DNA from: Emergencia sp.
GTDB lineage: Bacteria > Bacillota > Clostridia > Peptostreptococcales > Anaerovoracaceae
Assembly: GCA_022767345.1 (NCBI GenBank)
Contig: JALEOD010000005.1
Coordinates: 1-56,268 of the forward strand
DNA: 56,268 nucleotides
Reading direction: 5' to 3'
The notes below the pieces were generated by a model. The model was not told the origin of the DNA. It made no database searches and saw only the letters and a program-made list of their open reading frames with translations. The stretch's first letter is position 1. Every line of letters begins with the position of its first letter. Shown in pieces: positions 20,573 to 45,262 of the stretch. Made by a program: the position numbers and the translations under genes.

Positions 20573-20796
20573 GTGCATATTTTAGTAAAAAACTTCAAAA
20601 ATATGCACAGCAGCCTGCATATTTTCAGGTAAAATCAAAAATATATGCACATTTTCAACTGCTAGACATGGATTAACCGCCTGTTTAGCAGTTTTTATAT
20701 TGCAATTTGTGCATATTTCAGGATAAATGTAAAAAAATATGCACTTCTTCCAAGGAAAATGTGCATATTTTTGAAGTTTTCTTTTAAAATATGTAC
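20573..20796. repeat. Alternating inverted-word array 1 (word GTGCATAT)
   Basis: Eight copies of GTGCATAT alternate in orientation: + 20573, - 20601, + 20615 (CTGCATAT), - 20643, + 20709, - 20737, + 20761, - 20789 (ATATGTAC). The gap between the two copies of each of the four pairs is exactly 20 nt. Copies 2 and 7 extend into a 20-bp perfect inverted repeat (20589-20608 with 20761-20780). A separate hairpin, AACTGCTA...TAGCAGTT, lies in the centre (about 20657-20691). The array fills the gap between the convergent HIT and uraA genes. An 11-bp tandem AGGTCGCCTGG (20801-20822) sits just to its right. No coding frame is visible. Confidence 0.85.
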
Positions 20797-20829
20797 GCCG
20801 AGGTCGCCTGGAGGTCGCCTGGACAAGTA

Positions 20830-22143
20830 CTACAGCTTGAATGTCTGGAATTTTTCCTCGGTGCCGTCTTCTTCTTTGAATTCGTAATCATTGCCCGGCA
20901 GAATTGCGTTGGCAGCAATGCCGACGATGGCAGCGATGGCAAGTCCGGATAAAGTAATGGTCGCGCCGGCTACTGTAAAGGAGATGCCGCCTGCAGCGTT
21001 AAAGCCCAGTGCGCAGACCAGAATCAAAGCAGCGATAATCGTATTTCTTGATTTTGTAAAGTCAACCTGATTTTCAACTATGTTGCGGATTCCGATGGCG
21101 GAAATCATGCCGTAGAGAATCAGGGAAACGCCGCCGATGACAGCAGCCGGAATGGAAGAAATCGCAAAGCTGATTTTCGGAATAAAGGAAAGCAGGATTG
21201 CGAAGCAGGCTGCGATTCTGACAACGCGGGGATCATAAATCTTTGTCAGCGCGAGAACGCCGGTGTTCTCACCGTAAGTAGTATTGGCAGGACCGCCGAA
21301 AGCTGCGGAAAGACAGGTAGCAAGTCCGTCACCCAGTAAAGTCCTGTGCAGACCCGGGTTTGAAATGTAGTTTTTGCCTGTGGTAGCGCCAATGGCGGAA
21401 ATATCTCCGATGTGCTCCATCATGGTTGCAAGGGCGATCGGCATAATGGTGATAATAGCGGAAACATCGAATTTCATCACGGTCAGGTGAGGCAGTCCGA
21501 TGATAGCTTCCTCTCCGATTGCAGACAGGTCAACTTCGCCCATGAAAATTGCTGCAATATAGGAAATGACTACGCCTAAAATGATGGGAATGATTTTCAC
21601 CATGCCTTTGCCCCAGATATTGAAAATGATGATGGAAAGCAGGGCAATCAGCGCCAGCGGCCAGTTGGTCTGGCAGTTGGTAATCGCAGTCGGCGCTAAA
21701 ATCAGTCCGATGGAAATGATAATCGGCCCGGTTACCACCGGCGGGAAGAAGCGCATTACACGCTTTGCGCCGAAGGCTTTGATCAGAGCGGACATGATGA
21801 CATAGACAACGCCGGCAACAAAGACGCCGCCGCATGCGTAAGGCAGCATTTCCTCGTTAGGCATGCCGTCTGTCATAGGTGCAACGGCGGCGTATCCGCC
21901 GAGGAACGCGAAGGACGAGCCCAGAAAAGCCGGAACTTTACCTTTTGTCAGTAAGTGGAATAAAAAAGTTCCAAGTCCTGCCATCAGCAGGGTGACAGAT
22001 ACGTCAAGACCGGTCAAAATAGGCACCAGTATCGTTGCGCCAAACATGGCGAAAGTGTGCTGTAATCCCAAAATCAGCATTTTAAAAATGCCCAGGGAAG
22101 AAGCGTCATAGATACCGTTAGTTCGTGTTTCTTTCTCAGTCAT
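20830..22143 (-). CDS. uraA: Uracil/xanthine permease (NCS2 family)
   Basis: This nucleobase:cation symporter of the NCS2 family resides in the inner membrane. The 437-aa protein has the usual length and about 14 hydrophobic segments. The family signature lies near GGPANTTYGENTGVLALTKIYDPR (in parts GGPANTTYGEN and TGVLALTKIYD). FAMFGATILVPILTGLD at the N-terminus is typical of uracil-type carriers. GAGAATTGA precedes the ATG. It is divergent from the MerR::NhaC remnant with an interleaved promoter. No pyr attenuator or purine riboswitch is seen in the 126-nt upstream region. Uracil is the most likely substrate, and xanthine cannot be excluded. Confidence 0.9.
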   Translation of the reverse strand: MTEKETRTNGIYDASSLGIFKMLILGLQHTFAMFGATILVPILTGLDVSVTLLMAGLGTFLFHLLTKGKVPAFLGSSFAFLGGYAAVAPMTDGMPNEEMLPYACGGVFVAGVVYVIMSALIKAFGAKRVMRFFPPVVTGPIIISIGLILAPTAITNCQTNWPLALIALLSIIIFNIWGKGMVKIIPIILGVVISYIAAIFMGEVDLSAIGEEAIIGLPHLTVMKFDVSAIITIMPIALATMMEHIGDISAIGATTGKNYISNPGLHRTLLGDGLATCLSAAFGGPANTTYGENTGVLALTKIYDPRVVRIAACFAILLSFIPKISFAISSIPAAVIGGVSLILYGMISAIGIRNIVENQVDFTKSRNTIIAALILVCALGFNAAGGISFTVAGATITLSGLAIAAIVGIAANAILPGNDYEFKEEDGTEEKFQTFKL

Positions 22144-22193
22144 ATATCAATTCTCCTTTGATTAAAACGGTAGGAATAGTTGCTCAGCTACTC

Positions 22194-22237
22194 ATGTTAC
22201 TTTAAATCTGGACAGATGTCAATATAAAATATATAAT
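22194..22237. promoter_or_regulatory. Interleaved divergent promoters of uraA (-) and the MerR frame (+)
   Basis: Minus strand: TTGACA (22222-22217), 17 nt, TAACAT (22199-22194) for uraA. Plus strand: TGGACA (22209-22214), 17 nt, TATAAT (22232-22237) for the MerR start at 22270. The two -35 boxes lie inside each other's spacer, so only one can be occupied at a time. Confidence 0.68.
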
Positions 22238-22269
22238 GTTTTTATCAAAAGAGATAAGGAGAAACCGGC

Positions 22270-23589
22270 ATGTACTTGACAGTAGGAGAAATTTCAAAAG
22301 CTCTTGGCATATCTACAGAAGCAATTCGTTATTATGTGAAAGAAGGGATTATTACCCCAAAGCGAAACGAAGAAAATAATTACTGGGTTTACTCATCTGA
22401 CGATTTGATGAAATTGACAGACATCATGTTCTATCGTTCTATGGGGCTGACTATGAAGGATATCAAGGACATTATGTCAGGCCTTGCCCTTTCGGAAAAA
22501 ATCCTGAAAACCAGAAAAATGTCCATGCTTGGTACATGGATTTTAGGTATTATTGTTTGTGTTGACGATTATTTGAACTGTCTGGCAGTAAGTGCTGCGG
22601 TAAGAAAGATTACTGACAACGAGAAGGTTTCCAGGGAAATGCTGGCGTACATCATTAACTCGACCGGTGTGACAGTATGCGCAATTATTCCATTCTCATC
22701 CTGGGCGGCGTTTATGGGCGGTCTGATGGAAAAATCCGACATGCTGGGCGGCTACAGCGTATCCGGTGCTTATATTCACACCATTCCGTTTATGCTTTAC
22801 GGCTGGCTTGCGGTAATTTGCGTACCTCTGTTTATCCTTAAAGTGATTCCGCTCTTTGGACCGATGAAAAAATCCGAAGAAAGAGCGCTTACGGCCGGCG
22901 AAGTATTTTCTCCGGAAGCAAAGGCGTAGCTTGGAGAGCTTCCTGATGAAGAACTGAAATTTAAAGATAAAAAATGCAGAACAATTAACTTTTTAGCGCC
23001 GATTCTTTTAGTAGCGGTTCTGACAGTAACCACAGAAGATCTGCTCATCGGTGTATTTGCGGCTCTGGCGCTGTGCTTTATCATGTATCTGCCGCAGAGA
23101 CTGATGACTGCCAAGGAATATTTTAACAATATTATGGCTGGCCTGCAGGATATGTTCGGCATGCTGGTTGTAATCATTTTGTCCTATACGCTGATTGATA
23201 TCAATGGGCAGCTGGGACTTGTTGAGTTTGTCGTAAGTGTGGCTCTGAAGGCGGTAAATCCGGCGCTGCTTCCGGTAACTGTATTTGTAGTAATCGGACT
23301 GCTTTCCTTTGCTTCCGGCAGCTTCTGGGGACTTGCGGCGATTGCATTCCCGATTGTAGGCTCTCTGTCTGCAGCACTGGGTGTAAGCCCTCTGCTTTGC
23401 GGCGGCGCGCTGATTTCTGCCGTTGCCTTCGGCGGACATATCTGTCTGTATTCTGATACCGTAATTTTGACTTCTGCTTCCACGCAGATTACCAATGCAG
23501 AATACTTCAGGACATCTGCACCGCTGGTGGCAGTTCCCTTTGCGATTGCGGCAATAGGGTTTATCGCACTGGGATTTGTGATGGTGTAA
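22270..23589 (+). pseudogene. MerR regulator fused to a NhaC-type Na+/H+ antiporter, with internal stop
   Basis: Residues 1-76 are a MerR DNA-binding domain (TVGEISKALGISTEAIRYY, then GLTMKDIKDIMSGL). From about residue 80 the frame becomes the middle of a NhaC-family antiporter (LGTWILGIIVCVDDYLNCLAV, with the DDYLN motif of the family). The effector part of MerR and the first roughly 100-150 residues of NhaC are missing, as if an internal deletion fused two neighbouring genes. A TAG at 22927-22929 then interrupts the frame, and antiporter sequence continues in the same frame to 23589 (NFLAPILLVAVLTV ... GGALISAVAFGGHICLYSDT). It is most likely inactive. A hairpin terminator follows. Confidence 0.85.
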
Positions 23590-23602
23590 TAAGAATGATG
23601 CG

Positions 23603-23634
23603 AACAGGCTGGCGTCTATTGCCAGTCTGTTATT
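23603..23634 (+). terminator. Terminator after the NhaC remnant
   Basis: AACAGGCTGGC (23603-23613) pairs with GCCAGTCTGTT (23621-23631), with one G-U pair, followed by ATTTTTA. Confidence 0.75.
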
Positions 23635-23647
23635 TTTATATTATAAT
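23619..23647 (+). promoter_or_regulatory. Sigma-A promoter of the LysO-like gene
   Basis: TTGCCA (23619-23624), 17 nt, TATAAT (23642-23647), 32 nt before the start codon. The -35 box lies inside the 3' arm of the preceding terminator. Confidence 0.65.
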
Positions 23648-23679
23648 GAATCATAGTATATTAAAAAAGGAGATATGGC

Positions 23680-24693
23680 ATGGCGGACTTAGCACTATAC
23701 CTGTCTATGGCAGTAATCGGATATTTTTTCGGAAGCAGACTCAGGAGTCATGAGACTTTGATTCGGTGGACGGGAAGACTGCAGACCTTTGCGATTATGA
23801 TATTGATTTTCGCCATGGGAATGAGAATGGGCGCAAACCGTGAGGTAGTGGAAAACCTCAATTCAATCGGACTCTATGCGCTGATTATGACGATTTCCAT
23901 CATTTTGTTTTCCATTGTGATCATGACGGCGGTTCGTAAACTGATGGGCATTGACCGTTTTGGGAATCTCCGAAGTAAGGCAGGCCGCGGCGAGGCGGTG
24001 CAGAAAATGACTGCGGAAACTGAAATAGAAGCGGAAGGACCGGCTGACGAAGAAAACCCGGAAAATAAGATAAACTTTATGACTGCCATTATCGTTCTTT
24101 GTGTAGTAGGAGGGCTTCTTTTCGGACACTTCTGCGTGCCTCGTATTTTCTCTGATATGGATGCTTTTGCAAGTTTAATCGGTATGATGATTAACATAGG
24201 ACTCTGCGTACTGCTGTTTTTTGTCGGCTTTGATATGGGTGTGGATGGCACAGCCCTGCAGCACTTCAGACAGGTTGGCGTGCGCGTATTTCTCTTTCCT
24301 GTGGCAGTGATGACAGGAACTCTCATTGGGGCGGCGGTCTGCGTGCCGATTCTTTCCGGCCTTTCGCTGCGGGAGGCTCTTGCAATTGGCGGCGGATTCG
24401 GCTGGTATACCTTTGCCCCTGGTCTTATCATGGAGGCCGGGTTGGTCACCGCCAGTGCCATCTGCTTTATGCACAACGTCATGCGCGAATTTATATCGAT
24501 TTTGATTGTACCGCTGGTAGCCAAAAAAATCGGCTATCTTGAGGCTATGGCGGTGCCTGCGTGTTCATCCATGGATGTCTGTCTGCCAATTATTGAGCGT
24601 TCTACCCGTGGTGATATCGCGATGTATTCTTTTATCAGCGGTGTTGTACAAAGCGCGGCAGTTCCCATTGTAGTGCCGCTGATTTTAGGATGA
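23680..24693 (+). CDS. LysO-family (DUF340) exporter
   Basis: This 337-aa membrane protein is related to the lysine exporter LysO (YbjE). Two hydrophobic halves are separated by a charged linker at about 92-130. The second half carries the family block GGGFGWYTFAPGLIMEAG (about 232-249), FMHNVMREF and SSMDVCLPIIER. The protein is slightly longer than E. coli LysO (about 300 aa) because of the linker. AAGGAGAT precedes the ATG. The gene is monocistronic and is followed by repeat array 2. Lysine or a related amino acid as substrate is an inference from the family. Confidence 0.85.
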   Translation: MADLALYLSMAVIGYFFGSRLRSHETLIRWTGRLQTFAIMILIFAMGMRMGANREVVENLNSIGLYALIMTISIILFSIVIMTAVRKLMGIDRFGNLRSKAGRGEAVQKMTAETEIEAEGPADEENPENKINFMTAIIVLCVVGGLLFGHFCVPRIFSDMDAFASLIGMMINIGLCVLLFFVGFDMGVDGTALQHFRQVGVRVFLFPVAVMTGTLIGAAVCVPILSGLSLREALAIGGGFGWYTFAPGLIMEAGLVTASAICFMHNVMREFISILIVPLVAKKIGYLEAMAVPACSSMDVCLPIIERSTRGDIAMYSFISGVVQSAAVPIVVPLILG

Positions 24694-24761
24694 CAGGATT
24701 GAGAAAGCAGTCACAAATGCTGAAGCGGGAACTCACGACAAAGGCATGAAAGCGAAGGAAA

Positions 24762-25027
24762 GTTGACAAATATTCGTGATTTCTTTGTTTTTGTCAACAT
24801 TTCATGGGATTCCCACCCAAGTTTATATGAAAATTAACTGTTTTTGTTGACAAAGTTGACTAAAATCAAAAAAAGTGTCAATTTTGTCAACGTTTTTGCG
24901 ATAAAACGTTGACAAAATTGACAGATTCTCGTTTTTTTGTCAACATTGGCAATGTTTAAGCCATATTAGCGATGTCATTTAGTCTGTTTGTTGACAAAAA
25001 TACGCGGGTCTAACGAAATTTGTCAAC
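24762..25027. repeat. Alternating inverted-word array 2 (word GTTGACAAA)
   Basis: Eight full copies of GTTGACAAA alternate in orientation: + 24762, - 24790, + 24846, - 24883, + 24908, - 24936, + 24990, - 25019. The gaps within pairs are 19, 28, 19 and 20 nt. Extra half copies lie at 24855, 24875 and 24917. Copies 4 and 5 extend into a 21-bp perfect inverted repeat (24876-24896 with 24903-24923) around a 6-nt loop. The rest of the 24694-25232 gap holds no gene I can support, only the rpsU promoter at 25135. Confidence 0.8.
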
Positions 25028-25134
25028 GTTGATAGAAGAAAGAAATCTTTATGTGCCTTCATGCCTTTGCCGTGCGCAAGAACTGCAGCAATGCAGGCGG
25101 CAGCAAGAAAGTCAAAAGAATTTCAAATTTAGAC

Positions 25135-25163
25135 TTGCCTATCTTCATCAAAAATAGTATAAT
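25135..25163 (+). promoter_or_regulatory. Sigma-A promoter of rpsU-yqeY
   Basis: TTGCCT (25135-25140), 17 nt, TATAAT (25158-25163), giving a leader of about 63 nt before rpsU. Confidence 0.75.
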
Positions 25164-25232
25164 AGTTCCGTTATAGGCAAAAGACTGTTCACAGCTAATG
25201 ATTTTCAAGTTAGTCAGGAGGTGAATTGGAAT

Positions 25233-25412
25233 ATGGCACAGGTAATCGTTAGAGAAAACGAGAGTTTGGAAAGCGCTCTGAAGAGATTCAAGAGATCATG
25301 CGCCAGAGACGGCGTTATGAGCGAACTCAGAAAGAGAGAGCATTACGAAAAACCAAGCGTAAAGAGAAAGAAAAAGTCTGAAGCTGCTAGAAAAAAGGCT
25401 AAGAAATACTAG
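25233..25412 (+). CDS. rpsU: 30S ribosomal protein S21
   Basis: S21 is a small basic protein of the 30S platform. The ATG at 25233 ([20 protein letters not shown], 59 aa) is chosen over the upstream ATG because CAGGAGG is placed for it. The core [15 protein letters not shown], then [19 protein letters not shown] and a lysine-rich tail are standard for the family. It forms an operon with yqeY 25 nt downstream, a common Firmicutes order. Confidence 0.97.
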
Positions 25413-25437
25413 TCATTTAGGATCGAGGTGAGAGTAA

Positions 25438-25884
25438 ATGACTTTAAAAGAACAACTAATGGCTGATTTCAAAGAGGCGATGAAAGCCCACAATGAGACA
25501 GCTAAGAATACAATCAGTTTAGCTCGTGCTGCAATCAAGCAGTATGAAGTAGATAACAGAGAAGAACTGGACGACGCAGGCATTATTGCAATTTTATCCA
25601 AGCAGGTAAAAATGCGTAAGGATGCCCTCGCTGATTTTGAAAGAGCTGGAAGAACAGATCTGGCAGAAGCATATAACGCAGAGATAGAAATTCTGAATAG
25701 ATATTTACCGGAACAATTATCCAAAGAGAAAGTTATGGAAATTGTCAAAGAGACTGCAGCTGCACTGGGAATTGAAGGCGGCAAGCAGAATATGGGTAAA
25801 CTGATGGGACCGGTTATGGGTAAGGTCAAGGGCCTTGCTGACGGTTCCTTAGTAAAAGAAGTTGTAATGGAATTTCTGGCATAA
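25438..25884 (+). CDS. yqeY: GatB/YqeY domain protein
   Basis: This 148-aa protein of the YqeY family resembles the C-terminal tRNA-binding tail domain of GatB. Its role is uncertain, and co-occurrence with rpsU is widespread. Family blocks: the N-terminal LKEQLMADFKEAMKAHN, ILSKQVKMRKDALADFERAGR (about 60-80), EIEILNRYLPEQLS and GKLMGPVMGKVKGLADGS near the C-terminus. Start ATG follows GAGGTGAGAG. It is closed by a strong terminator. Confidence 0.93.
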   Translation: MTLKEQLMADFKEAMKAHNETAKNTISLARAAIKQYEVDNREELDDAGIIAILSKQVKMRKDALADFERAGRTDLAEAYNAEIEILNRYLPEQLSKEKVMEIVKETAAALGIEGGKQNMGKLMGPVMGKVKGLADGSLVKEVVMEFLA

Positions 25885-25904
25885 ATCTGAAATACGAAAA
25901 CAGG

Positions 25905-25936
25905 ACAACCTGACGGTAATGTCAGGTTGTTTTAAT
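25905..25936 (+). terminator. Terminator of rpsU-yqeY
   Basis: ACAACCTGAC (25905-25914) pairs with GTCAGGTTGT (25921-25930) and is followed by TTTAA. Confidence 0.88.
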
Positions 25937-25964
25937 ACAGAAACGGAATTCCAGCAGGCAGTGC

Positions 25965-26699
25965 TTACCGGCAGTAAAATTCAATTGCTTCTTTGACAAA
26001 TTCCGCGGTGCCTTTACCGCCTGCTTTGTCGATATTTTTCGTAAAACGTGGGTCGCAGACGTACATTTCACCTAAAGATTTTAGAATTTCATCGCTGCAC
26101 TGGTAATGATGCCGGGAAATAAAGTCCTGCAGTTTTTTTACCAGTGCTTGTACCTCCGGTGTGCCCGGCGGCTGTGACGTCAGAGCGCCGAACTCTGCGA
26201 AGATATCGAACATCTGCCGGGTGAGTATTTCTTGGGAAACTGCATTTTCAGCAGCGCTGCCGCTTTTTTCCATAAACTGGCGGTAGCTTTCCGTATGACC
26301 CCAGCGGGCTTTTACCTCCTTGGCGTAGTCATCTATTTCTTTTTTATCAAAGCTTTCAAAATTTAACATATGATCAACTCCTTCCTTTTGAATTTGCAAG
26401 GCAAGGGCGATGAGCTTTTCCAGCCGCTCTTTCTGCAGCGTGAGCATCTGAATCTGCTGGGACAGCGCTTCCCCTTTGTTAAAATCAGGGCTGTCTAGAA
26501 TTTGCTGAATTTCTTTCAGGGGAAACCTAAGCTCCCGAAACAGCAGGATGATTTGCAGCCGCTCAAGGGCCTTGTGGTCATAGAGCCTGTAGCCTGCAGA
26601 GGTAATCTGCGATGGTTTGAGCAGCCCGATTGCGTCATAGTGATGCAGCGCACGGATGCTGATTCCAGTCAGCTTGCTGACCTCCTTTACCGTTTTCAT
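25965..26699 (-). CDS. MerR/TipA-type transcriptional regulator
   Basis: The 244-aa protein has an N-terminal MerR winged helix (residues 1-70, VKEVSKLTGISIRALHHYDAIGL in parts, then AGYRLYDHKALERLQIILLFREL), a coiled-coil dimerisation helix (about 75-115) and a C-terminal TipAS-like ligand domain (about 120-244, with WGHTESYRQF and a final CDPRFTKNIDK ... FVKEAIEFYCR). TipA proteins bind thiopeptides or other multidrug ligands and autoactivate. Its own promoter has the 19-nt spacer and central dyad expected for this class. It is divergent from yqfC with little space between them. The ligand is unknown. Confidence 0.92.
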   Translation of the reverse strand: MKTVKEVSKLTGISIRALHHYDAIGLLKPSQITSAGYRLYDHKALERLQIILLFRELRFPLKEIQQILDSPDFNKGEALSQQIQMLTLQKERLEKLIALALQIQKEGVDHMLNFESFDKKEIDDYAKEVKARWGHTESYRQFMEKSGSAAENAVSQEILTRQMFDIFAEFGALTSQPPGTPEVQALVKKLQDFISRHHYQCSDEILKSLGEMYVCDPRFTKNIDKAGGKGTAEFVKEAIEFYCR

Positions 26700-26739
26700 A
26701 AAACCCCTCCTTTTTGTAAAATTTTATCCGGATAACTAT

Positions 26740-26770
26740 AGTATAAAGGCTCACGTTGGGTGAGAGTCAA
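26740..26770 (-). promoter_or_regulatory. MerR-type autoregulated promoter of the TipA-like gene
   Basis: On the minus strand, TTGACT (26770-26765), a 19-nt spacer and TATACT (26745-26740). The long spacer holds the palindrome CTCAC-CCAAC-GTGAG (26764-26750), the expected operator for a MerR-class activator that untwists the promoter. Confidence 0.82.
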
Positions 26771-26780
26771 GACTTTTTTC

Positions 26781-26809
26781 GCATACTGAAGTGCCCATTG
26801 GCATATACT
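26781..26809 (+). promoter_or_regulatory. Candidate sigma-E-type sporulation promoter of yqfC
   Basis: GCATACT (26781-26787), 14 nt, CATATACT (26802-26809) resembles the Bacillus sigma-E pattern (KMATATT-N14-CATACANT) with mismatches. The transcript would start at about 26816, on the ATG itself. Confidence 0.45.
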
Positions 26810-26815
26810 TTCACC

Positions 26816-27073
26816 ATGAAACTACTAAACGAGATTACATACGATTTTGATATAACAGGACCGAAGATTACCGCGTCTGCCAAAGCTGCCATCATCGAAA
26901 ATGTAAAGCAGGTGGTGTTAATCAGCGATACTCAGGTGACGGTGGATACGGGCAGATTTTATGTAACGGTGACGGGCAGTCGTTTTATCATCAGTGAAAT
27001 TTGGGAAGGACGAATGGAACTTGAGGGCGAAATCACAGGAATCGAATTTTATAAAACATCGGGTAAGCGTTAA
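26816..27073 (+). CDS. yqfC: Sporulation protein YqfC (YabP/YqfC family)
   Basis: YqfC is a small mother-cell sporulation protein of unknown biochemistry. The 85-aa product from ATG 26816 (MKLLNEITYDFDITGPKIT) has the family pattern: FDITGPKIT, QVVLISDTQVTVDTGRFYV and a final ELEGEITGIEF. No Shine-Dalgarno sequence precedes this ATG, and the candidate sigma-E promoter would give a leaderless message. The in-frame TTG further upstream (26756) overlaps the TipA operator and is unlikely. The gene is followed by yqfD, as in most spore formers, and overlaps it. Confidence 0.85.
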   Translation: MKLLNEITYDFDITGPKITASAKAAIIENVKQVVLISDTQVTVDTGRFYVTVTGSRFIISEIWEGRMELEGEITGIEFYKTSGKR

Positions 27074-28052
27074 ACTGGAGGGCTTTAAACCGGAGAGAAT
27101 TCTGTCTCAGGCAGCGGCAAAGGGAATTTTGCTGCGTCAGATCCGCTATAAAGATGAAACTGAAGTCTATTTCACTGTCAGCAGGGAGGGGCTGCGTACT
27201 TTAAAAAAACTGGCAGGGAGTAAGTACAAGTTCACGCAGATTGGTGAAGGCGGTGCAGTCTGCCTTCTGAAAAAACTGAGGGCAGGCAAGATGATGATTG
27301 CAGGAATTTTCGTATTTCTGTTATTTTTCTTTGCGCAGACTCTTTTTGTGCGGGAAATCAATATCATCGGCTGCAAGACCATTACAGAGACCAGTATCAG
27401 AGAGCTGATTGCCGAAGAAGGACTTTATGAGGGGGCGCTGCGCCGCTTTGATTGTGACGAGATAGAGAAAAAATTATTTCAAAACTTTGATACCATTGTC
27501 TGGAGCAGAGTGGCTTACGAAGGCGGTTATGTGGAAGTGCAGATTTCAGAAAGCGAGCAGGCACCCATTGCTGCCGCGGACAGCAAAAACCCCTGCGATA
27601 TTGTAAGTGATCAGGATTGCTATATCGAGAGAATTTATACCTATAAAGGCAGAGCCAGAGTCAGTGAAAATGATTTTGTAAAGAAAGGCGATATTCTCAT
27701 TGCGGGAACCGTACCCATCGAACATCCCTCTTATCCGGTAGAGGAAGGAAAAACCATGGAACATTATACCCATGCCGACGGTAAGATTGTGGCAAGAGTG
27801 CCTTACTATTTTTCCTTTTATATGGAAGCTGGGGAGTCAAAAAAGCGGGCAGAAACCCTGCTGCGGGATTGGATAAAAGAAAATACACCAAAAGGTGCTG
27901 AAATTTTAAATAAAGACTTTTACTTTGATGAAAAAAAAGGTAAAATTAGAGTATACGGAACAGTAGAAACGCGCCAGAGAGTTGGCGTAGAAAAGGAGAT
28001 TGTAATTGACAAACAGGAGCGAGGAACTAAAGAGAATTCAGATAGAGGATGA
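26994..28052 (+). CDS. yqfD: Sporulation protein YqfD
   Basis: YqfD is a mother-cell membrane protein required for sporulation in Firmicutes, with a function that is not well defined. The family core starts at RVSVKLEGFKPERIL, has a membrane segment MIAGIFVFLLFFFAQTLFV (about residues 101-119) and an extracytoplasmic part with INIIGCKTIT (FtsQ-like) and GQ/PHOS-like sheets rich in charged residues. The GTG at 26994 is the first start in frame, but it lies 80 nt inside yqfC. Family N-termini suggest a start closer to 27060, where only non-standard codons are available, so the 5' end is uncertain. The stop overlaps the phoH start by 47 nt. Confidence 0.85.
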   Translation: MKFGKDEWNLRAKSQESNFIKHRVSVKLEGFKPERILSQAAAKGILLRQIRYKDETEVYFTVSREGLRTLKKLAGSKYKFTQIGEGGAVCLLKKLRAGKMMIAGIFVFLLFFFAQTLFVREINIIGCKTITETSIRELIAEEGLYEGALRRFDCDEIEKKLFQNFDTIVWSRVAYEGGYVEVQISESEQAPIAAADSKNPCDIVSDQDCYIERIYTYKGRARVSENDFVKKGDILIAGTVPIEHPSYPVEEGKTMEHYTHADGKIVARVPYYFSFYMEAGESKKRAETLLRDWIKENTPKGAEILNKDFYFDEKKGKIRVYGTVETRQRVGVEKEIVIDKQERGTKENSDRG

Positions 28053-36952: not shown

Positions 36953-36962
36953 GGAGATTAAT

Positions 36963-37898: not shown

Positions 37899-37911
37899 GT
37901 TTACAATTGGC

Positions 37912-37946
37912 GCCGGCAGTAACGGTACTTTACCGTTACTGCCGGC
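37912..37946 (+). terminator. Terminator after the SPFH gene
   Basis: GCCGGCAGTAACGG (37912-37925) pairs perfectly with CCGTTACTGCCGGC (37933-37946). The following T-run is broken (ATTTGTTTGTTT). Confidence 0.85.
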
Positions 37947-37991
37947 ATTTGTTTGTTTAGAAAATATAGGGATACAAGGCTAGGCGGTATA

Positions 37992-38048
37992 GCACGCCAT
38001 ACACAAACCCTAATTTTGCATGCATGGCGCTGCCATGGTATGGCGTGC
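37992..38048. repeat. Short inverted-word cluster (GCCAT)
   Basis: GCACGCCATAC (37992-38002) is the exact inverse complement of GTATGGCGTGC (38038-38048). Between them ATGGC (38024) and GCCAT (38032) give the order +, -, +, -. It resembles the larger arrays in alternation but not in spacing. It lies upstream of the HyuA-like gene. Confidence 0.5.
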
Positions 38049-38143
38049 CCAAATATTATACCAATTTTTCTGTTAGTTGTGCGTGCAGCGAACCTATCGA
38101 TGTGTTACAATGAAGGCAAAATAAAAGAAAGAAGGACCTTGCC

Positions 38144-40153
38144 ATGATCGGAATTGGAATTGATACTGGGGGAACCTGCACCGATGCAGTGGTATTCGAT
38201 ACAAAGAGTCACCAGGTGCTTTCTCAGAGTAAAACACTGACAACGAGACAGGATTTAAAAGTTGGTATTTTAAAGGCGCTGAAAGGACTATCGAAAGAAG
38301 CTGTGTCTAAGGCGCAGTATATTTCTTTGTCTACAACTTTGGCGACCAATGCTTGTGTAGAACATAAGGGAGGCAGAGCGAAACTGGTGTTCATCGGCGT
38401 TAATCCGGCGCAGATTGAAAAGACGAGAGAGGCTTATGGACTGCCGCCTCTTTCTGAAATATATTTTATGGCAGGAGACGCGAAGAAGGATGACAGCCCG
38501 GAAAACACACCGGACTGGAAAAAGCTGAAAGCAGATTTGCAGAGTCAGTTTGCGGACTATGATAGTGCAGCTATCGTGCAGGTCAATCCTAAATACGATG
38601 ATGGAGCCTATGAGATAGAAGCAGCACGTATCATCAGTGAAAGTTTGAAAATTCCTTGTGTCAGAGGATTTGAACTTTATCAGGAACTGAATGTACTGCG
38701 GAGAGGGGCGACAGCACTGCTCAATGCAAGACTGCTTCCGGTCATGGAGGAGTTCTTTGCGTCCATTGATGCGTCCCTTTCCGAGATGGGGCTCGATTTG
38801 CCTATCGTCATCGTCAGAAGCGACGGCACTATTATGAGTAAAGATTTTGCGGCGGAGAGACCGGTAGAAACTCTGCTATGCGGTCCTGCGGCAAGTATTA
38901 TCGGCGCCATGGAGCTTTCCAGTTATGAGGACGCATTGATTGTGGACATCGGCGGAACGACCAGCGATGTGGCATTTGTGAAAGAAGGCGTGCCGGTATC
39001 TACCGACGCAGGCATTGCCATTGGCGAGTGGAAGACCATGGTGAAAGGTGTTTCTATCGATACCTTTGCTCTTGGCGGAGACAGCGCTGTGAAATACAAG
39101 GGCAGGCAGCTTTACCTGGAAAAGCGCCGATATATTCCGCTCTGCATGCTGGCAAGTCAGTATCCGGAAGTGGTGAAAAAGCTGAAAACTCTGGTACATA
39201 TGGATCAGCCTTTCAGCTATCCGGCTCATGAATTTTTCCTGCTGATGGTAATGCCGGAGAATTTGAATCGGTATACCATAGCGGAGCAGCGCTTGATCAA
39301 AGCCTTGAAAGGCGGCCCGCTGATTTTTAAAGATGCTGCAGAGGCTGCCAGAATAAGTCCCCATGTGCTAAACATGAAGCGTCTTGAAGATGAGGGGGTG
39401 GTGATGCGCGCAGGCATGACACCGACCGACGCAATGCACGTCTTCGGCGACTATACGGAATTTGACTGTGACGCCAGCAGACTTTCCGCAGCTTACCTTT
39501 CAGCTGTAACTAAATTGCCTGCTGAGACGGTGTGCAGGGAAATTTATCATCTGACAAAGTCCAGACTGTACAGCAATCTGGTGCGGATTTTGATGAAATA
39601 TAAGACGGGAAAAGACTTGACGGAAGAAGAAACCGAGCAGCTGGAAAAGCTGACGACTATGGTCTTTGCAGACTGGACAGAAGGCAATGGGGCCTGCCTG
39701 GTTCCATCCTTTGCGACACCGCTGAAACTCATCGGAATCGGCGCGCCGACGAAGATTTTTATGGAAGATGTGGCCAAACTTCTTGGCACTGAGGCGGATT
39801 TTCCTGAAGCTGGTAAGGTAGCAAACGCTATAGGCGCAGCCATGGGAAATATCAGCACGGAAAGTACCATCACCATTGAGCCATACAAGGGAATCAAGAG
39901 CTCCTATTTAACCTATGTGATTACCGGCGGAGAGAAGACTTTCTCCATTCCTGAGTACAGAGAAGCAGTGGAAGAGGCAAAGAAGCTGGCGAGAGAAGCT
40001 GCAGTGAAGAGAGCACGGCAGCAGGGTGCTTTAGGCGCCATCGAAGTGGAGGTCACCGTCAAGGAAAATACTTATCAGAGAAACAAATATGCTCACCCGG
40101 AGCTTTTGGACACCAAAGTCATTGCAAGAGCTGTAGTGAAGGACGTTCTATAG
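38144..40153 (+). CDS. Hydantoinase/oxoprolinase (HyuA-like) family protein
   Basis: The 669-aa protein belongs to the ATP-dependent hydantoinase A / oxoprolinase / acetone carboxylase beta group with an actin-like ATPase core. GIDTGGTCTDAVVFD is at residues 4-18. The N-terminal domain has LSTTLATNACVEHKGG. The second phosphate loop VDIGGTTSDVAFVKEG is at about 267-282. A HyuB-type partner is normally encoded next to such genes and is absent here, so it may act alone or with a distant subunit. RBS AGAAAGAAGG. It is convergent with trmO, with repeat array 3 between them. The substrate is unknown. Confidence 0.88.
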   Translation: MIGIGIDTGGTCTDAVVFDTKSHQVLSQSKTLTTRQDLKVGILKALKGLSKEAVSKAQYISLSTTLATNACVEHKGGRAKLVFIGVNPAQIEKTREAYGLPPLSEIYFMAGDAKKDDSPENTPDWKKLKADLQSQFADYDSAAIVQVNPKYDDGAYEIEAARIISESLKIPCVRGFELYQELNVLRRGATALLNARLLPVMEEFFASIDASLSEMGLDLPIVIVRSDGTIMSKDFAAERPVETLLCGPAASIIGAMELSSYEDALIVDIGGTTSDVAFVKEGVPVSTDAGIAIGEWKTMVKGVSIDTFALGGDSAVKYKGRQLYLEKRRYIPLCMLASQYPEVVKKLKTLVHMDQPFSYPAHEFFLLMVMPENLNRYTIAEQRLIKALKGGPLIFKDAAEAARISPHVLNMKRLEDEGVVMRAGMTPTDAMHVFGDYTEFDCDASRLSAAYLSAVTKLPAETVCREIYHLTKSRLYSNLVRILMKYKTGKDLTEEETEQLEKLTTMVFADWTEGNGACLVPSFATPLKLIGIGAPTKIFMEDVAKLLGTEADFPEAGKVANAIGAAMGNISTESTITIEPYKGIKSSYLTYVITGGEKTFSIPEYREAVEEAKKLAREAAVKRARQQGALGAIEVEVTVKENTYQRNKYAHPELLDTKVIARAVVKDVL

Positions 40154-40190
40154 TGAGATATTGTGGGATTGTAGTACCCGGCTTTCTTGC

Positions 40191-40527
40191 TGCACCATTT
40201 TCCTCGAAAATGGACAGAATGGTGCACTTTTTAAAAGAAGAGAAGTAACATCTGCACCATATACAGCGAAATAAGGAGCTATGGTGCAGATTTTTTTTAT
40301 GAAATTTAAAATAAATGGATTTGCTGGAAGGGAATGAGAAATAATGGAAAACTTTGCTTCCATTTTATGCAAACTACTTCCAGAAACATAGAAACTTATG
40401 ACAATTTTTTTGTATTTTCAGTATCTGCACGCACCATTACCCTTGTTTTTGGGACTATTTGGTGCAGAATTCAGATTTGCAGCAACATGAAATGCACCAT
40501 TATCCCATTTTTTTCTCAAAATGGTGC
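40191..40527. repeat. Alternating inverted-word array 3 (word GCACCAT)
   Basis: Eight copies of GCACCAT alternate: + 40192, - 40219, + 40254, - 40281, + 40431, - 40459 (TTGGTGC), + 40494, - 40521. The gaps within the four pairs are 20, 20, 21 and 20 nt. Three pairs are TG-extended to an 8-mer (TGCACCAT) on at least one side. A separate hairpin, ATAATGGAA...TTCCATTTTAT, lies in the long central gap (about 40342-40369). The array fills the space between the convergent HyuA-like and trmO genes, and no reading frame there has a plausible start. Confidence 0.85.
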
Positions 40528-40560
40528 GCATTCAATCTTCAAGGGCTTCATGGGTTTGCT

Positions 40561-41259
40561 CTAATTGTGCTGAAACCGGCAGATTTCTATTACAGTCAGG
40601 ATATCATCCTCTACCTGAAAACGCACATCAAAGCCTGCGAAGCGGATACCGTAAATCCGCTGGCTGTCATTTTGGTAAGATGGCCGCGGATCTTGGGAGA
40701 GAACCTCTAAAAGTCCTTTTTGCAAAGGGGCTGGAATCACAGAAAGGAGCTGCGGTGGAAAATCAACTTTCAGCCGGTAGTCCTTGGTCTCTTCCTGAAA
40801 TCCGCAGACGGCATCAGGATGGCAGTCTGTGGAAATATATGGTTTTATGTCATAAATCGGTGTACCGTTCATTAAATCAGCGCCGGAGACGATGATGACA
40901 GGTCCCAGTTTTGAATCCTGCCGGATTTCTTTGATACGGACTGAAGAAAGTGCAAGTCCGTTGGGTCTGAAGGAAGAGCGGGTCGCAAAGACACCGACTT
41001 TTTTGTTGCCTCCAAGACGGGGCGGCCGCACTGTAGGCGACCAGTTCTTTTCGGTAATCCGGGGATTTTCTGAAAATCCCCAGATGAGCCAGAGATAGGA
41101 AAAGCCTGTAAGGCCGCGAAGGGCATCCATATTTCGAAATGGCTTTTCGAAGACAATTCTCGCTTCTATGTCCTCAGCAAGTCCGCTCTGACGGGGAATG
41201 CCGAACTTATCAGGAAATATGCTCTCAATGTGGGCGACAGGTGAAATCTGTAGATTCAT
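40561..41259 (-). CDS. trmO: tRNA (N6-threonylcarbamoyladenosine37-N6)-methyltransferase TrmO
   Basis: TrmO (TsaA) methylates t6A37 to m6t6A in tRNA-Thr. The 232-aa protein has the beta-barrel signature: PVAHIESIFPDKFGIPRQSGL, GLTGFSYLWLIWGFSEN, then RPPRLGGNKKVGVFATRSSFRPN (in parts) and GADLMNGTPIYDIKPYI. The start directly follows the malic enzyme stop, so the two form an operon. Together with mtaB it gives two t6A37-modifying enzymes in this window. Confidence 0.95.
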   Translation of the reverse strand: MNLQISPVAHIESIFPDKFGIPRQSGLAEDIEARIVFEKPFRNMDALRGLTGFSYLWLIWGFSENPRITEKNWSPTVRPPRLGGNKKVGVFATRSSFRPNGLALSSVRIKEIRQDSKLGPVIIVSGADLMNGTPIYDIKPYISTDCHPDAVCGFQEETKDYRLKVDFPPQLLSVIPAPLQKGLLEVLSQDPRPSYQNDSQRIYGIRFAGFDVRFQVEDDILTVIEICRFQHN

Positions 41260-42414
41260 TTATCTGTCTTCCCAAGCTTTTTTTACTGCGGCAGCCAAAG
41301 CATCTGCGGCGGTCTTGTTAAATACAGTCGGCAGAATATTTTCAGCGCAGAGTTCATCTGCAGGAATGCTGTCAGCCAGTGCATAGACTGCGGCAATCAG
41401 CATTTCTTCTGTGATGGTAGTTGCTTTTGCGTCGAGAGCGCCGCGGAACAGGGACGGGAATACCAAAACGTTGTTAATCTGATTCGGATAATCGGAACGG
41501 CCTGTGCCGACTACTGTAGCGCCGGCTGCTTTTGCGTCGTCAGGAGAAATTTCCGGAACCGGGTTTGCCATAGCGAAGATAATTGGATCTTCTGCCATGG
41601 TTTTTACCATTTCGACGGAAAGAACGCCAGGAGCGGAAACACCGATAAATACGTCAGCACCTGCAACAGCTTCTGCCAGACCCCCTTCTATATTATCTGG
41701 GTTGGTGAAAGCAAGCAGTTCTTTCTTGGCAGGGCTCAGATTTCTGTGGGCGGAGACGATGCCTTTGCTGTCACAGATTAAAATGTGGTGGCAGCCCAGG
41801 TTATATGCCATCTGAGAGATAGCGCTTCCCGCGGCACCGGCACCGTTGATAACGATTTTGCAATCTTCCATAGCGCGGTCTGTGATACGCAGGGCGTTAA
41901 TCAGCGCAGCGCAGGTAACGATAGCTGTACCGTGCTGGTCATCATGGAATACCGGGATGTTCAGCTCTTTTTTTAGACGTCTTTCCACCTCAAAGCAGGC
42001 AGGGGCGGCGATGTCCTCCAGGTTGATGCCGCCAAAACCCGGCGCGATATTTTTTACAGTTGCAATGATTTCTTCAGGGTCCTGTGACGCAAGGCAGATA
42101 GGGAATGCGTCGATTCCCGCAAAGTGTTTAAAGAGAATGGCTTTTCCTTCCATCACCGGCATGCCGGCAAGAGCTCCGATGTTGCCGAGACCTAAGATAG
42201 CCGAGCCATCGGTTACAATAGCCACCAGTCGGTCTCTCGATGTGTATTTTGAAGCAGCAGTCGGGTCGTCTTTGATAGCCAGGCAGGGCGCGGCAACCCC
42301 CGGCGTGTAGTAAACCGCCAAATCTTCGGCGTCTTTTAGTTCCACGCGGGAAGTGATATCAATTTTGCCGCTGGCTTTCTCGTGACGTTCCAGTGCCAGT
42401 TTTCCGTAATCCAT
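41260..42414 (-). CDS. NAD(P)-dependent malic enzyme
   Basis: Oxidative decarboxylation of malate to pyruvate. At 384 aa it is the short bacterial form without a phosphotransacetylase domain. SRVELKDAEDLAVYYTPGVAAPC at the N-terminus, DGSAILGLGNIGALAGMPVMEGK (about 70-92), VFHDDQHGTAIV (about 155-166) with the metal-binding DD, and the Rossmann motif INGAGAAGSAIS (about 190-201) are all typical. It lies upstream of trmO and has its own sigma-A promoter. Cofactor preference cannot be judged. Confidence 0.95.
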   Translation of the reverse strand: MDYGKLALERHEKASGKIDITSRVELKDAEDLAVYYTPGVAAPCLAIKDDPTAASKYTSRDRLVAIVTDGSAILGLGNIGALAGMPVMEGKAILFKHFAGIDAFPICLASQDPEEIIATVKNIAPGFGGINLEDIAAPACFEVERRLKKELNIPVFHDDQHGTAIVTCAALINALRITDRAMEDCKIVINGAGAAGSAISQMAYNLGCHHILICDSKGIVSAHRNLSPAKKELLAFTNPDNIEGGLAEAVAGADVFIGVSAPGVLSVEMVKTMAEDPIIFAMANPVPEISPDDAKAAGATVVGTGRSDYPNQINNVLVFPSLFRGALDAKATTITEEMLIAAVYALADSIPADELCAENILPTVFNKTAADALAAAVKKAWEDR

Positions 42415-42459
42415 GTAAATCAGTCCTTTCAGTGTGTATATTTATTCTTTGGCGTTACC

Positions 42460-42488
42460 AGTATACAACAAACGAGGGAACAAATCAA
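42460..42488 (-). promoter_or_regulatory. Sigma-A promoter of malic enzyme-trmO
   Basis: On the minus strand, TTGATT (42488-42483), 17 nt, TATACT (42465-42460), 46 nt before the malic enzyme start. Confidence 0.72.
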
Positions 42489-42529
42489 ACACCGCAGGAA
42501 TATTTTTTCAGTTTTCAATGGAAAAAATA

Positions 42530-42558
42530 TTTGGAAATACTGGGTTTCATGCTATAAT
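42530..42558 (+). promoter_or_regulatory. Probable sigma-A promoter of the DUF1653 gene
   Basis: TTTGGA (42530-42535), 17 nt, TATAAT (42553-42558). The leader to the gene start is about 160 nt. It contains a hydrophobic frame (FLFIIVGIVVQIFGEY, about 42640-42690) that has no start codon and a stop just upstream, possibly a decayed small membrane protein. Confidence 0.6.
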
Positions 42559-42725
42559 AAATCGGAGATTTTAATCAAGTGGAAGAAAGGAAGTTACAAG
42601 CGGACTGATGGTACAGGAATTACATCCGATGGTCTTGCCGATGGTTTCTGTTTATTATAGTCGGTATTGTAGTGCAGATTTTCGGAGAATATATACAGCC
42701 CTCCGCACAGAAAGGAGTTTGAGTA

Positions 42726-42956
42726 GTGAGCACAGAAATGAAATTTGAAATAAAACAGGGGAAATACCGCCACTTTAAAGGAAATGAATACGAAGTCCTT
42801 GGAGTGGCAACCCATTCAGAAACCTTAGAACCTATGGTAATTTACAGAGCGCTCTATGGTGAGTATGGCATTTGGGTCAGACCTGCCTCTATGTGGAATG
42901 AAACCATCGTAAGAGATGGGGTAGAGAAAAAGCGCTTTACTTATATCGGAGAATAG
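42726..42956 (+). CDS. DUF1653 domain protein
   Basis: This 76-aa protein is nearly all DUF1653: GKYRHFKGNEYEVLGVATHSET (in parts), MVIYRALYGEYGIWVRPASMW and a final RFTYIG. The fold is a small beta barrel and the function is unknown to me. GTG 42726 follows AAAGGAG at 8 nt; the in-frame ATG at 42738 is a weaker alternative. It is closed by a bidirectional terminator shared with trpB2. Confidence 0.88.
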   Translation: MSTEMKFEIKQGKYRHFKGNEYEVLGVATHSETLEPMVIYRALYGEYGIWVRPASMWNETIVRDGVEKKRFTYIGE

Positions 42957-43010
42957 AAAAGAACCCATGACTGCCGGAATTTGATTTTCGGACAGCCAGG
43001 GGTTCTTTTT
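42957..43010. terminator. Bidirectional terminator between DUF1653 and trpB2
   Basis: AAAAGAACCC (42957-42966) pairs with GGGGTTCTTTTT (42999-43010). CTGCCGGAA and TTTTCGGACAG form an inner stem. Confidence 0.82.
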
Positions 43011-43025
43011 ACTCTTGCAGTTTTA

Positions 43026-44402
43026 TTAGTCCATTTTCGGCAGACTGTCGAATCCTGTCTGTAAATCTTCGTCAGTCGGTACATAGTCGCTCATTGCGCC
43101 GTCATTGAACTGCTGATATGCTTTCAGGTCGAAGTAACCGGTTCCGGTCAAACCGAAGAGTATGGTCTTTTCTTCGCCGGTTTCCTTGCAGCGGAGAGCT
43201 TCGTCGATGGCAGCTTTGATTGCGTGACTGCTTTCCGGTGCAGGCAGAATACCTTCTACTTTCGCAAAATCAGTAGCTGCTTTGAAAACTTCGGTCTGCT
43301 CGTAGCTTCTTGCTTCCATCATGCCCTGATCGTAAAGTTCAGAGAGAATCGGGCTCATGCCATGGTATCTGAGACCGCCTGCGTGATTCGCAGATGGAAT
43401 AAAGCCGCTACCCAGAGTGTACATCTTAGCCATCGGTGTAACTTTTCCGGTATCGCAGAAGTCATATGCGTATTTACCTCTTGTCAGGCTTGGGCAGGAA
43501 GCAGGTTCAACAGCAATAAATCTGTAGTCTTTTTCGCCGCGGAGCTTTTCGCCCATGAATGGGGAAATCAGACCTCCAAGGTTGGAGCCGCCGCCGGCAC
43601 AGCCGATGATGATGTCAGGGGTAATGCCGTATTTGTCCATGGCTGTCTTTGCTTCCAGACCGATGACACTCTGGTGCAGCATTACCTGAGAAAGCACGCT
43701 GCCCAGCACATATCTGTAACCCTCTTTGGAAGTGGCAGCTTCAATGGCTTCGGAAATGGCGCAACCAAGGCTTCCCGTAGTTCCCGGATGCTCTGCCAGG
43801 ATTTTCTTACCGATTTCGGTGGTATTAGAAGGGGACGGCGTCACCTTTGCGCCATAGGTTCTCATAACTTCACGTCTGAACGGCTTCTGTTCGTAGGACA
43901 CTTTTACCATGTACACGTTGCAGTCAAGACCCAGATATGCGCATGCCATGGAAAGGGCAGTACCCCACTGACCGGCACCAGTTTCTGTCGTCACACCTTT
44001 CAGACCTTGTTTCTTCGCGTAGTAAGCCTGTGTAATTGCTGAATTCAGCTTGTGGCTTCCGCTGGTGTTATTACCTTCAAATTTGTAGTAAATCTTTGCC
44101 GGCGTCTGCAGCTTCTCTTCTAAGCAGTAAGCGCGAACCAGCGGGGAAGGGCGGTACATCTTATAGAAATCCTGAATTTCCTGCGGAATATCGAAATAGG
44201 CGGTATCGTTGTCCAGTTCCTGTTTTACAAGTTCCTCGCAGAAAACAGGGGTAAGGTCAGCTTCAGTTACAGGCTGCAGCGTATCAGGATTCAGCATCGG
44301 CGCAGGCTTTTTCTTCATATCTGCGCGGACGTTGTAATACTGCGTAGGCATTTCATTTTCTTCCAGATAAATTTTGTAAGGGATTTTCTTTTCGTTGTTC
44401 AT
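43026..44402 (-). CDS. trpB: Tryptophan synthase beta chain, TrpB2 type
   Basis: This PLP enzyme joins indole and serine to tryptophan. The 458-aa length and the N-terminal extension (YNVRADMKKKPAP, then RPSPLVRAYCLEEKL) mark the TrpB2 (stand-alone) subgroup. The PLP lysine is in NNTSGSHKLNSA (about 110-121), the phosphate loop is GCAGGGSNLGG (about 266-276) and ETGAGQWGTALSMA follows the TrpB pattern. The ATG at 44402 has AAAGGAG upstream; the longer frame reaches back into the T-box terminator. No trpA or other trp gene is adjacent. Control by a tryptophan T-box shows that it serves tryptophan supply, perhaps by salvaging indole. Confidence 0.94.
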   Translation of the reverse strand: MNNEKKIPYKIYLEENEMPTQYYNVRADMKKKPAPMLNPDTLQPVTEADLTPVFCEELVKQELDNDTAYFDIPQEIQDFYKMYRPSPLVRAYCLEEKLQTPAKIYYKFEGNNTSGSHKLNSAITQAYYAKKQGLKGVTTETGAGQWGTALSMACAYLGLDCNVYMVKVSYEQKPFRREVMRTYGAKVTPSPSNTTEIGKKILAEHPGTTGSLGCAISEAIEAATSKEGYRYVLGSVLSQVMLHQSVIGLEAKTAMDKYGITPDIIIGCAGGGSNLGGLISPFMGEKLRGEKDYRFIAVEPASCPSLTRGKYAYDFCDTGKVTPMAKMYTLGSGFIPSANHAGGLRYHGMSPILSELYDQGMMEARSYEQTEVFKAATDFAKVEGILPAPESSHAIKAAIDEALRCKETGEEKTILFGLTGTGYFDLKAYQQFNDGAMSDYVPTDEDLQTGFDSLPKMD

Positions 44403-44467
44403 TTTTCTTTCTCCTTTCAATTTTGCGCGGGAGAGGGGTGTGTCATTTAAGCTCAAAAAGCAGAAAA

Positions 44468-44764
44468 CTCCTGTCCCAGACTATAACTGCTGGGACAAGA
44501 GTAAAAATTTCTCTTGCGGTGCCACCCGGCTTGACGATAGGATTACCCTGCCGTCCACTCTGCGCATACTATCATATGCCGACTTTGGTTACGAAGTGTC
44601 TTTCTCCGTCGCCCCTACTGCGGTATAATGAAAACGACCGGTTCGGTTTGCCCTCAGGAGTCCATTCGGCTCTGTCTTTGCCTGCTGTAATCTCACCATC
44701 TACAGCTCTCTCAAAGGTAAGTTTCAGAACTTACTACTCTCCCTCAAAGGTTTAGCTCATATTT
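44468..44764 (-). promoter_or_regulatory. Tryptophan T-box leader (riboswitch) of trpB2
   Basis: In transcript sense the leader has a stem I with AGAGAGCTGTAGATGGTGAGA, a specifier region GAATGGACTCC whose codon TGG (plus-strand CCA, 44664-44662) reads Trp, and the conserved T-box GGGTGGCACCGC (44528-44517). A terminator stem follows, CTCTTGTCCCAG/CTGGGACAGGAG (44501-44468), and then T-rich sequence. Uncharged tRNA-Trp should pair with the T-box and prevent the terminator from forming. Confidence 0.92.
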
Positions 44765-44775
44765 AATTCTTCCCT

Positions 44776-44804
44776 ATCATAACACCGGATTTGGTGCTTG
44801 TCAA
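44776..44804 (-). promoter_or_regulatory. Sigma-A promoter of the T-box/trpB2 transcript
   Basis: On the minus strand, TTGACA (44804-44799), 17 nt, TATGAT (44781-44776). The start of the leader follows within about 10 nt. The rest of the 44403-45272 gap is the T-box and repeat array 4. Confidence 0.85.
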
Positions 44805-44913
44805 TAAGTTTTTGTAAAAAAACCAAAATTGCTTTGTGAAATGTGTGGAAGTTATACAAATTTTAGAATTGCAGCAGCACGAAAACGCCTTCCTAAAGGT
44901 CAACCTGAAAATC

Positions 44914-45262
44914 TGCACCATTTTGCGCTGATATGAACTAAATGGTGCAGCCCTTCAACATGCAAAACCAATAATCCGCACCATTTTCGCCGAAATGCGA
45001 CGGCATGGTGCGGATTTTTCTGTGAGAGTATTGAATCCAGTATTGAATCCAATGTGTTTTTGGAAGTTTGTGGTAAACAATGGTAAATCCTTTTTCCTGC
45101 TTATGTATATAATTTCCAGAACACAAAGATAGCATTTAAGTTTCCAGCATTTACTGCTCCGTACCTGCACCATTGCCTTTTATTTGATATGATTTGGTGC
45201 GGAATCAGGATTCACTGGCTGAAGACTCGCACCATTTAGTTCATATCAGTGCAAAATGGTGC
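44914..45262. repeat. Alternating inverted-word array 4 (word GCACCAT)
   Basis: Eight copies alternate: + 44915, - 44942, + 44978, - 45005, + 45167, - 45194 (TTGGTGC), + 45229, - 45256. All four within-pair gaps are exactly 20 nt. The first unit (44915-44948) and the last (45229-45262) are inverse complements over 34 nt with one mismatch. The word is the same as in the array at 40191, 4.7 kb away, while most spacers differ. It lies between the 3' end of the ZIP gene and the trpB2 promoter. Confidence 0.87.

Follow-up and report, generated by a model that had tools for sequence, protein, structure and literature searches.

Helically phased arrays of inverted words in Emergencia as candidate protein-docking platforms

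The systems closest to the arrays described here, as excerpts of the cited sources present them, are dispersed palindromes and clustered operators. REP/BIME sequences (repetitive extragenic palindromes and bacterial interspersed mosaic elements) with their REP-associated tyrosine transposases (RAYT) are reported to preserve their palindromy and to bind protein (PMC2817692). In the RcoLS20 operators of pLS20, insertion of 5 bp into the spacer abolished regulation (PMC4207663). The BirA operator, TTGTAAACC-[N14/15]-GGTTTACAA, is found once or twice per genome, at biotin genes (PMC545781), and MocR operators are built of two to four repeated boxes, mostly as direct repeats separated by two or three helical turns (PMC5320631). 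Here we analyse arrays of short inverted words in a 56,268-nt stretch of DNA from Emergencia sp. (contig JALEOD010000005.1 of assembly GCA_022767345.1; hereafter the window), which is contig C39 of the 2.60 Mb, 71-contig source genome (G000). The arrays are named by family after their words, A for GCACCAT, B for GTTGACAAA and C for GTGCATAT. With a probability of about 0.6, we read them as non-coding docking platforms in double-stranded DNA for candidate proteins, under selection in place. No account of such arrays was found in the literature covered, that is titles and abstracts of open-licence PMC papers.

Like REP/BIME, the arrays are dispersed and intergenic, with alternating orientation, many copies per genome and lineage-specific words (PMC2817692), but each unit is a wide dyad whose words stand about 20 nt apart, and the units follow one another at whole helical turns. 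With the RcoLS20 operators they have in common a short motif repeated in several copies in helical phase, whereas the single promoter locus described there (PMC4207663) contrasts with dozens of dispersed arrays, many words and positions often off promoters. The few repeated boxes of MocR operators are similar too, yet those operators are single, lie at promoters of metabolic genes and consist mostly of direct repeats (PMC5320631). Inverted words about 15 nt apart recall the BirA operator (PMC545781), which is closely resembled by the family B core TTGTCAAC-N16-GTTGACAA, while the remaining array words show no resemblance. Exact BirA-like matches in G000 number five, four being family B cores and the fifth lying inside an open reading frame (ORF) of 484 aa; in this search for exact matches, which did not extend to looser sites, none was at a biotin gene. 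As the other words misfit as well, we rejected an identity with the BirA operator. Clustered regularly interspaced short palindromic repeats were likewise dismissed, in agreement with an earlier note on this DNA, the words being short and inverted, without long identical direct repeats and unique spacers.

Geometry and helical phasing of the arrays

The four arrays of inverted pairs reported in the earlier note are all present in the window, at 20573-20796 (array 1, family C), 24762-25027 (array 2, family B), 40192-40527 (array 3, family A) and 44915-45262 (array 4, family A). A script that calls an array wherever a single word occurs in at least three inverted pairs recovered all four at k=6 and k=7 and only the GTTGACAAA array at k=8, and returned zero arrays from 20 dinucleotide shuffles of the window. 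The units, to which no strand is assigned, lie at 20573-20608, 20615-20650, 20709-20744 and 20761-20796 in array 1, at 24762-24798, 24855-24891, 24908-24944 and 24990-25027 in array 2, at 40192-40225, 40254-40287, 40431-40465 and 40494-40527 in array 3, and at 44915-44948, 44978-45011, 45167-45200 and 45229-45262 in array 4. The arrays show overall inverted symmetry.

Eight identical copies of the word had been claimed for each array; the word is repeated as described, but the copies are not all identical. In array 1, unit 2 starts with CTGCATAT as its left word and unit 4 finishes with ATATGTAC as its right word, and the third unit of both family A arrays (3 and 4) has TTGGTGC, not ATGGTGC, as its right arm. 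The gap between paired words is indeed 20 nt in 11 of the 12 units of arrays 1, 3 and 4 and 21 nt in the twelfth, unit 3 of array 3. The 28-nt gap given for the GTTGACAAA array proved to be a slip of register. In register, unit 2 of array 2 is GTTGAC-N25-GTCAAC at 24855-24891, with an extra outer word at 24846, and the 6-mer gaps of the four units are 25, 25, 25 and 26; family B has extra words one turn further in. The core TTGTCAAC-N16-GTTGACAA of array 2 is located at 24884-24915, and the array is enclosed by an outer inverted repeat of 20 nt with arms at 24734-24753 and 25055-25074 that are 90% complementary (core and arms again without strand).

Neighbouring unit centres are about 42, 52, 62, 73, 83, 93, 103, 126, 135, 147, 157, 167, 178, 188 or 198 bp apart. 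Among the 155 centre distances of 62 arrays, the best period was 10.45 bp (R=0.876; periods of 3-40 bp tried). Because copies within a family share their spacings, the distances were collapsed into 42 family-by-distance classes, excluding the tandem families L and M, which yielded R=0.838 at 10.45 bp; in 2000 uniform random distance sets, R never exceeded 0.55 at any period (0.2-bp steps). Most classes deviate from an integral number of turns by no more than 1.5 bp, and length changes between orthologs include steps of a whole turn, from 189 to 178 bp and from 114 to 103 bp. The period equals that of B-DNA, and the units therefore come to lie on one face of the helix.

The half-sites follow a common design. 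In the logos of families A-E, a word of about 8-10 bp is followed by less conserved bases and then by A/T at the dyad centre, with an A/T content there of 0.82-0.92 versus 0.38-0.64; for six other families pooled the values are 0.73 versus 0.54 (p=1e-5). In our own reading of the sequences, most half-sites can be written as TG-NNNN-A/T-rich, a fit that hints at paralogous proteins of altered specificity.

Constraint on the words between orthologs

An ortholog of array 1 occupies the corresponding locus of the related genome G011, and six arrays that share their locus in G000 and G011 (two of family A, four of family C) were compared base by base. Changes affected 28 of 367 positions in the words, 135 of 479 in the unit insides and 211 of 706 in the spacers, one unit of array L066/L212 that was lost in G011 being kept in this count. 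When that unit was left out, 19 of 353 word positions had changed compared to 313 of 1138 for the remainder. Against these 19 word changes, 101 were expected, or 51 after halving of the rate, a correction applied because the arrays had been picked by their G000 words (p=3e-7). Base composition fails to account for the deficit. The words of families A and C are thus held in place. A special process keeping the copies alike, as had been postulated, is unneeded, since the copies in a family share descent from a single array and purifying selection on the words suffices for homogeneity within a locus.

An RNA interpretation, in which the inverted words act as hairpins of structured RNAs or intrinsic terminators, makes a different prediction for these changes. 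Of 19 altered word pairs in the six ortholog pairs (the lost L066/L212 unit omitted), none was compensatory; 11 were unpaired in one species and 8 remained paired via G-U, although selection of the G000 arrays for good words weakens this test. In this respect the arrays also depart from REP/BIME, where palindromy is preserved according to the part of the source consulted (PMC2817692). Rfam at the gathering threshold found nothing on the arrays, its only match in the window being a group II intron fragment at the contig start (64-140, + strand; RF00029, 41.8 bits), and a 10.45-bp period is characteristic of duplex DNA and would be unexplained in an RNA. In favour of hairpins, many arrays are close to gene 3' ends (median 64 bp), and a run of five T follows 13 of 47 units in family A, 11 of 80 in B, 2 of 43 in C, 3 of 4 in D and 1 of 8 in E, counts that make a terminator function of single units possible, not general. 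A terminator-like hairpin was also seen by eye at the G011 site syntenic to array 3. Altogether, structured RNAs, one of the suggestions of the earlier note, appear highly improbable. Rather, helical phasing, words kept in place and the lack of compensatory changes argue that these are, very probably, protein-binding arrays in duplex DNA. A DNA-binding array whose protein varies had been suggested as well, and phasing, in-place conservation and the common half-site design speak for it.

By eye, a terminator-like inverted repeat, AACTGCTAGACA / TGTTTAGCAGTT followed by T's, occupies the centre of array 1 (20656-20700) and is conserved in G011. Similar centres occur in other family C arrays.

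Dispersal and movement of the word families

Genome-wide, the pattern GCACCA-N22/23-TGGTGC has 45 sites in G000 versus 1 for the reversed control, and GTTGACA-N20..24-TGTCAAC has 50 versus 0. The 45 family A units make up 12 compact arrays and one lone unit, and none is split into halves that flank a gene; the lone unit (L069:4780-4813, or C38:39779-39812) directly follows the end of a histidine-kinase-like gene, after its stop codon. Family B could be aligned at 24 loci and family C (GTGCATAT) is present at about 16 places. The further words TGACAC and TGACCG emerged from 481 kb of the source genome, mostly sampled around known arrays, and 120 kb of other stretches contained TGACAC again and one more family B array. 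At L075:5928-7728 (C40), an IS110-type transposase gene (Pfam Transposase_20) precedes a TGACAC array, with a TGACCG array 54 bp beyond that. Scattered inverted ATGGC/GCCAT words beside a family B unit at L263:1150-1560 (C16) perhaps represent a decayed array, judged by eye.

By DNA similarity, family B was detected in 5 of 31 genomes, in G012 by a single weak hit (E 9e-4), and family C in 2 of 31. Family B is assigned to G000, G004, G007, G011 and perhaps G006, families A and C to G000 and G011. The relatives were scanned as samples of their genomes, leaving out arrays with gap differences above 2 nt in most scans (above 3 nt in one) and, in two scans, words of fewer than three letters; the latter rule hides a CGCGCC array found by other scans. 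These scans returned the words GTTGTGCA and CTGACA in G011, TTGGGCT, TTAGGT and CGCGCC in G007, and TTCTAGAA and GTTTCT in G008, as well as a GTTGAC array in G006 and a GCCATG array in G012. The arrays are thus neither matched by shuffled sequence nor confined to the window, the two outcomes that the earlier note had named as refuting its observation. No array was found in the samples taken from G010 (80 kb), G009 (63 kb), G002 (27 kb), G001 (17 kb) and G003 (15 kb), nor in other genera of the family (186 kb), other families (60 kb) and a further 120 kb of both; 160 kb of G005 held a tandem repeat only.

That repeat, at L157:8597-8830, belongs with three other near-identical tandem dyad repeats, L145:16150-16480 and L147:4660-4990 in G007 and L245:6041-6340 in G012. 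Their periods of 63, 62, 52 and 94 bp (L145, L147, L245 and L157, respectively) are near whole helical turns, and the repeats look like young arrays; the L157 repeat is possibly due to chance, its arms not forming a clean palindrome. Tandem duplication of a dyad at intervals of whole turns, of the kind seen in the 52, 62-63 and 94 bp arrays, may give rise to new word families, which would then spread.

In a virus collection, the B, A and C patterns matched 6, 0 and 2 stretches, respectively. The six B-pattern stretches are without a listed multi-unit B array, no four-unit array of A, B or C words was seen among the matches, and the two C matches, identical in their printed sequence, contain two TGCATA pairs with unequal gaps of 22 and 26. 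Carriage of the arrays by viruses is not supported by these matches. Two GC-rich virus records with a matching printed stretch, L227:409-600 and L229:5553-5750, gave three-pair GCCGAG hits with gaps of 20-21, and TCGGCG hits too.

Several syntenic sites are free of arrays. Array 2 is missing in G009 and G006, array 3 in G011, and array 4 in G007, G005, G009 and G002. In G011, array 4 is inverted, next to 3.3 kb of sequence absent from G000 (L204:5940-9280, with a subtilisin-like ORF and two more, named by reading). A CTGACA array of G011 that is absent from G000 carries GAAC on both flanks, the other sites being too diverged to compare. Taken together, the absences, the inversion and the insertion indicate that arrays come or go as units.

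Such behaviour is what miniature inverted-repeat transposable elements (MITEs) display, these being short, non-coding, dispersed, of inverted symmetry and present or absent as a unit, as far as the sources consulted describe them. The words would then be binding sites of unseen transposases, retained for no other reason than that copies with good words move, and the arrays would have no host function. Besides the dispersed families with their overall inverted symmetry, the flanking GAAC and the inversion of array 4, outer inverted repeats, present at array 2 and seen by eye in part of family B, fit this explanation. In contrast to MITEs, the conserved parts of the arrays are internal phased dyads, and the words stay conserved at fixed loci amid diverging surroundings, which selection for mobility does not predict. 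Nor does the explanation sit well with family A, where no terminal repeats were seen and the units stay in compact arrays, never split around a gene. No transposase was found for the arrays, and an autonomous element with matching terminal repeats was not found in the genome-wide A and B pattern scans, the only searches made for it. A non-autonomous element copied from a template, one of the candidates of the earlier note, agrees with the dispersed families and the array-free sites but lacks a transposase and a firm target duplication. We regard a purely mobile origin of the word conservation as unlikely.

Movement by a RAYT transposase, as for REP/BIME, or a role as res-type sites of a serine recombinase merits hardly any credence. 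Orientation and intergenic dispersal agree with those of BIMEs as described in the excerpt of the source (PMC2817692). Yet G000 has one Y1_Tnp match and one serine recombinase match (an open frame of 533 aa) for at least five words, and G008 has two words with no Y1_Tnp match over the cut-off and no serine recombinase. This mismatch between enzymes and words refutes both REP/RAYT and res sites as far as tested; the earlier note likewise said that the arrays do not look like REP. A 34-bp dyad does resemble res site II.

Gene context and a proposed docking platform

The surroundings of 49 source-genome arrays were classified with a simple gene caller. Fifteen lie between convergent genes, where 12.8% would be expected by count (p=9e-4), and five between divergent genes, against an expected 21.6%. 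Broken down by family, the convergent arrangement applies to 5 of 12 arrays in A, 8 of 12 in C and 2 of 22 in B.

This distribution bears on the proposal that the arrays are operators by which ordinary regulators control adjacent promoters. Operators that are clustered and in helical phase are a hallmark of such control, as in RcoLS20 of pLS20 in the part of the source consulted (PMC4207663), and some arrays are upstream of DeoR-, XRE- and GntR-like regulator genes, as judged by reading. Fifteen convergent against five divergent locations, however, places many arrays where promoters are not expected, and most listed downstream genes are, by reading, unrelated and housekeeping-like. Sigma-54-like sites show no enrichment near arrays (1 in 52 kb compared to 28 in 481 kb), and control through sigma-54 was rejected on that account. 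Ordinary promoter control is therefore improbable.

Genes of a PD-(D/E)XK-like family, so named by reading, end at arrays in three independent cases with three different words. The members that lie next to arrays are at L064:5199-5996, L098:3991-4812, L141:8380-9162 and L218:1764-2546, and have no Pfam match over the cut-off. As a partner of the arrays the family was discarded, three other members being found without such an array alongside. HTH_11 counts are alike across the genus and hence uninformative.

Several observations weigh against docking platforms under selection in place. No protein that binds the arrays was found. The in-place test is confined to two families, A and C, and a single species pair, one unit of array L066 was lost in G011, and a few 1-nt indels between orthologs speak against a stronger claim of constraint. 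Divergence of the unit insides (28%) is close to that of the spacers (30%), and the A/T centre thus shows no in-place constraint of its own. Phasing is looser for two K and two N classes, 1.7-2.6 bp off, and for three B classes, 1.6-2.1 bp off; one class of C (1.6 bp) and one of F (1.8 bp) are off phase as well. Some arrays are near-identical tandem repeats, whose periods are therefore non-independent. Finally, family B is near background in its gene context, being neither enriched between convergent genes (2/22) nor depleted between divergent ones (4/22).

The docking platform we envisage would consist of palindromic operators of 34-38 bp, usually four but anywhere from three to six in number. 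On each, a dimer would read two inverted words of 7-10 bp and contact or bend the A/T-rich dyad centre. With the operators whole helical turns apart, the dimers would face the same side of the DNA and could assemble into a single looped or wrapped complex. Each word family probably has a protein of its own, and these may well be paralogues of one fold with altered specificity. Arrays would reach new sites as units and be kept there by selection in place. Since most arrays of families A and C adjoin gene 3' ends and many of them separate convergent genes, the likeliest role would be structural or insulating, in a chromosome domain or as a roadblock to transcription or replication, rather than promoter control, but even this role is doubtful.

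More tentatively still than the docking platforms themselves, we suggest that the arrays represent a new class of chromosomal element, in which paralogous dimeric proteins of one genus, with fast-changing specificity, each maintain a dispersed set of multi-operator platforms of their own, all sharing one phased design, that organise or insulate the chromosome. Any genome can be scanned for the signature of one word in inverted pairs about 20 nt apart and spaced by whole turns. If the reading is true, a single geometry persists as the word is replaced from family to family and from one close species to the next, and the co-change of a DNA-binding specificity and its dozens of sites would become testable, as would roles away from promoters. 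Bacteria would then carry dispersed, fast-evolving platforms for protein docking.

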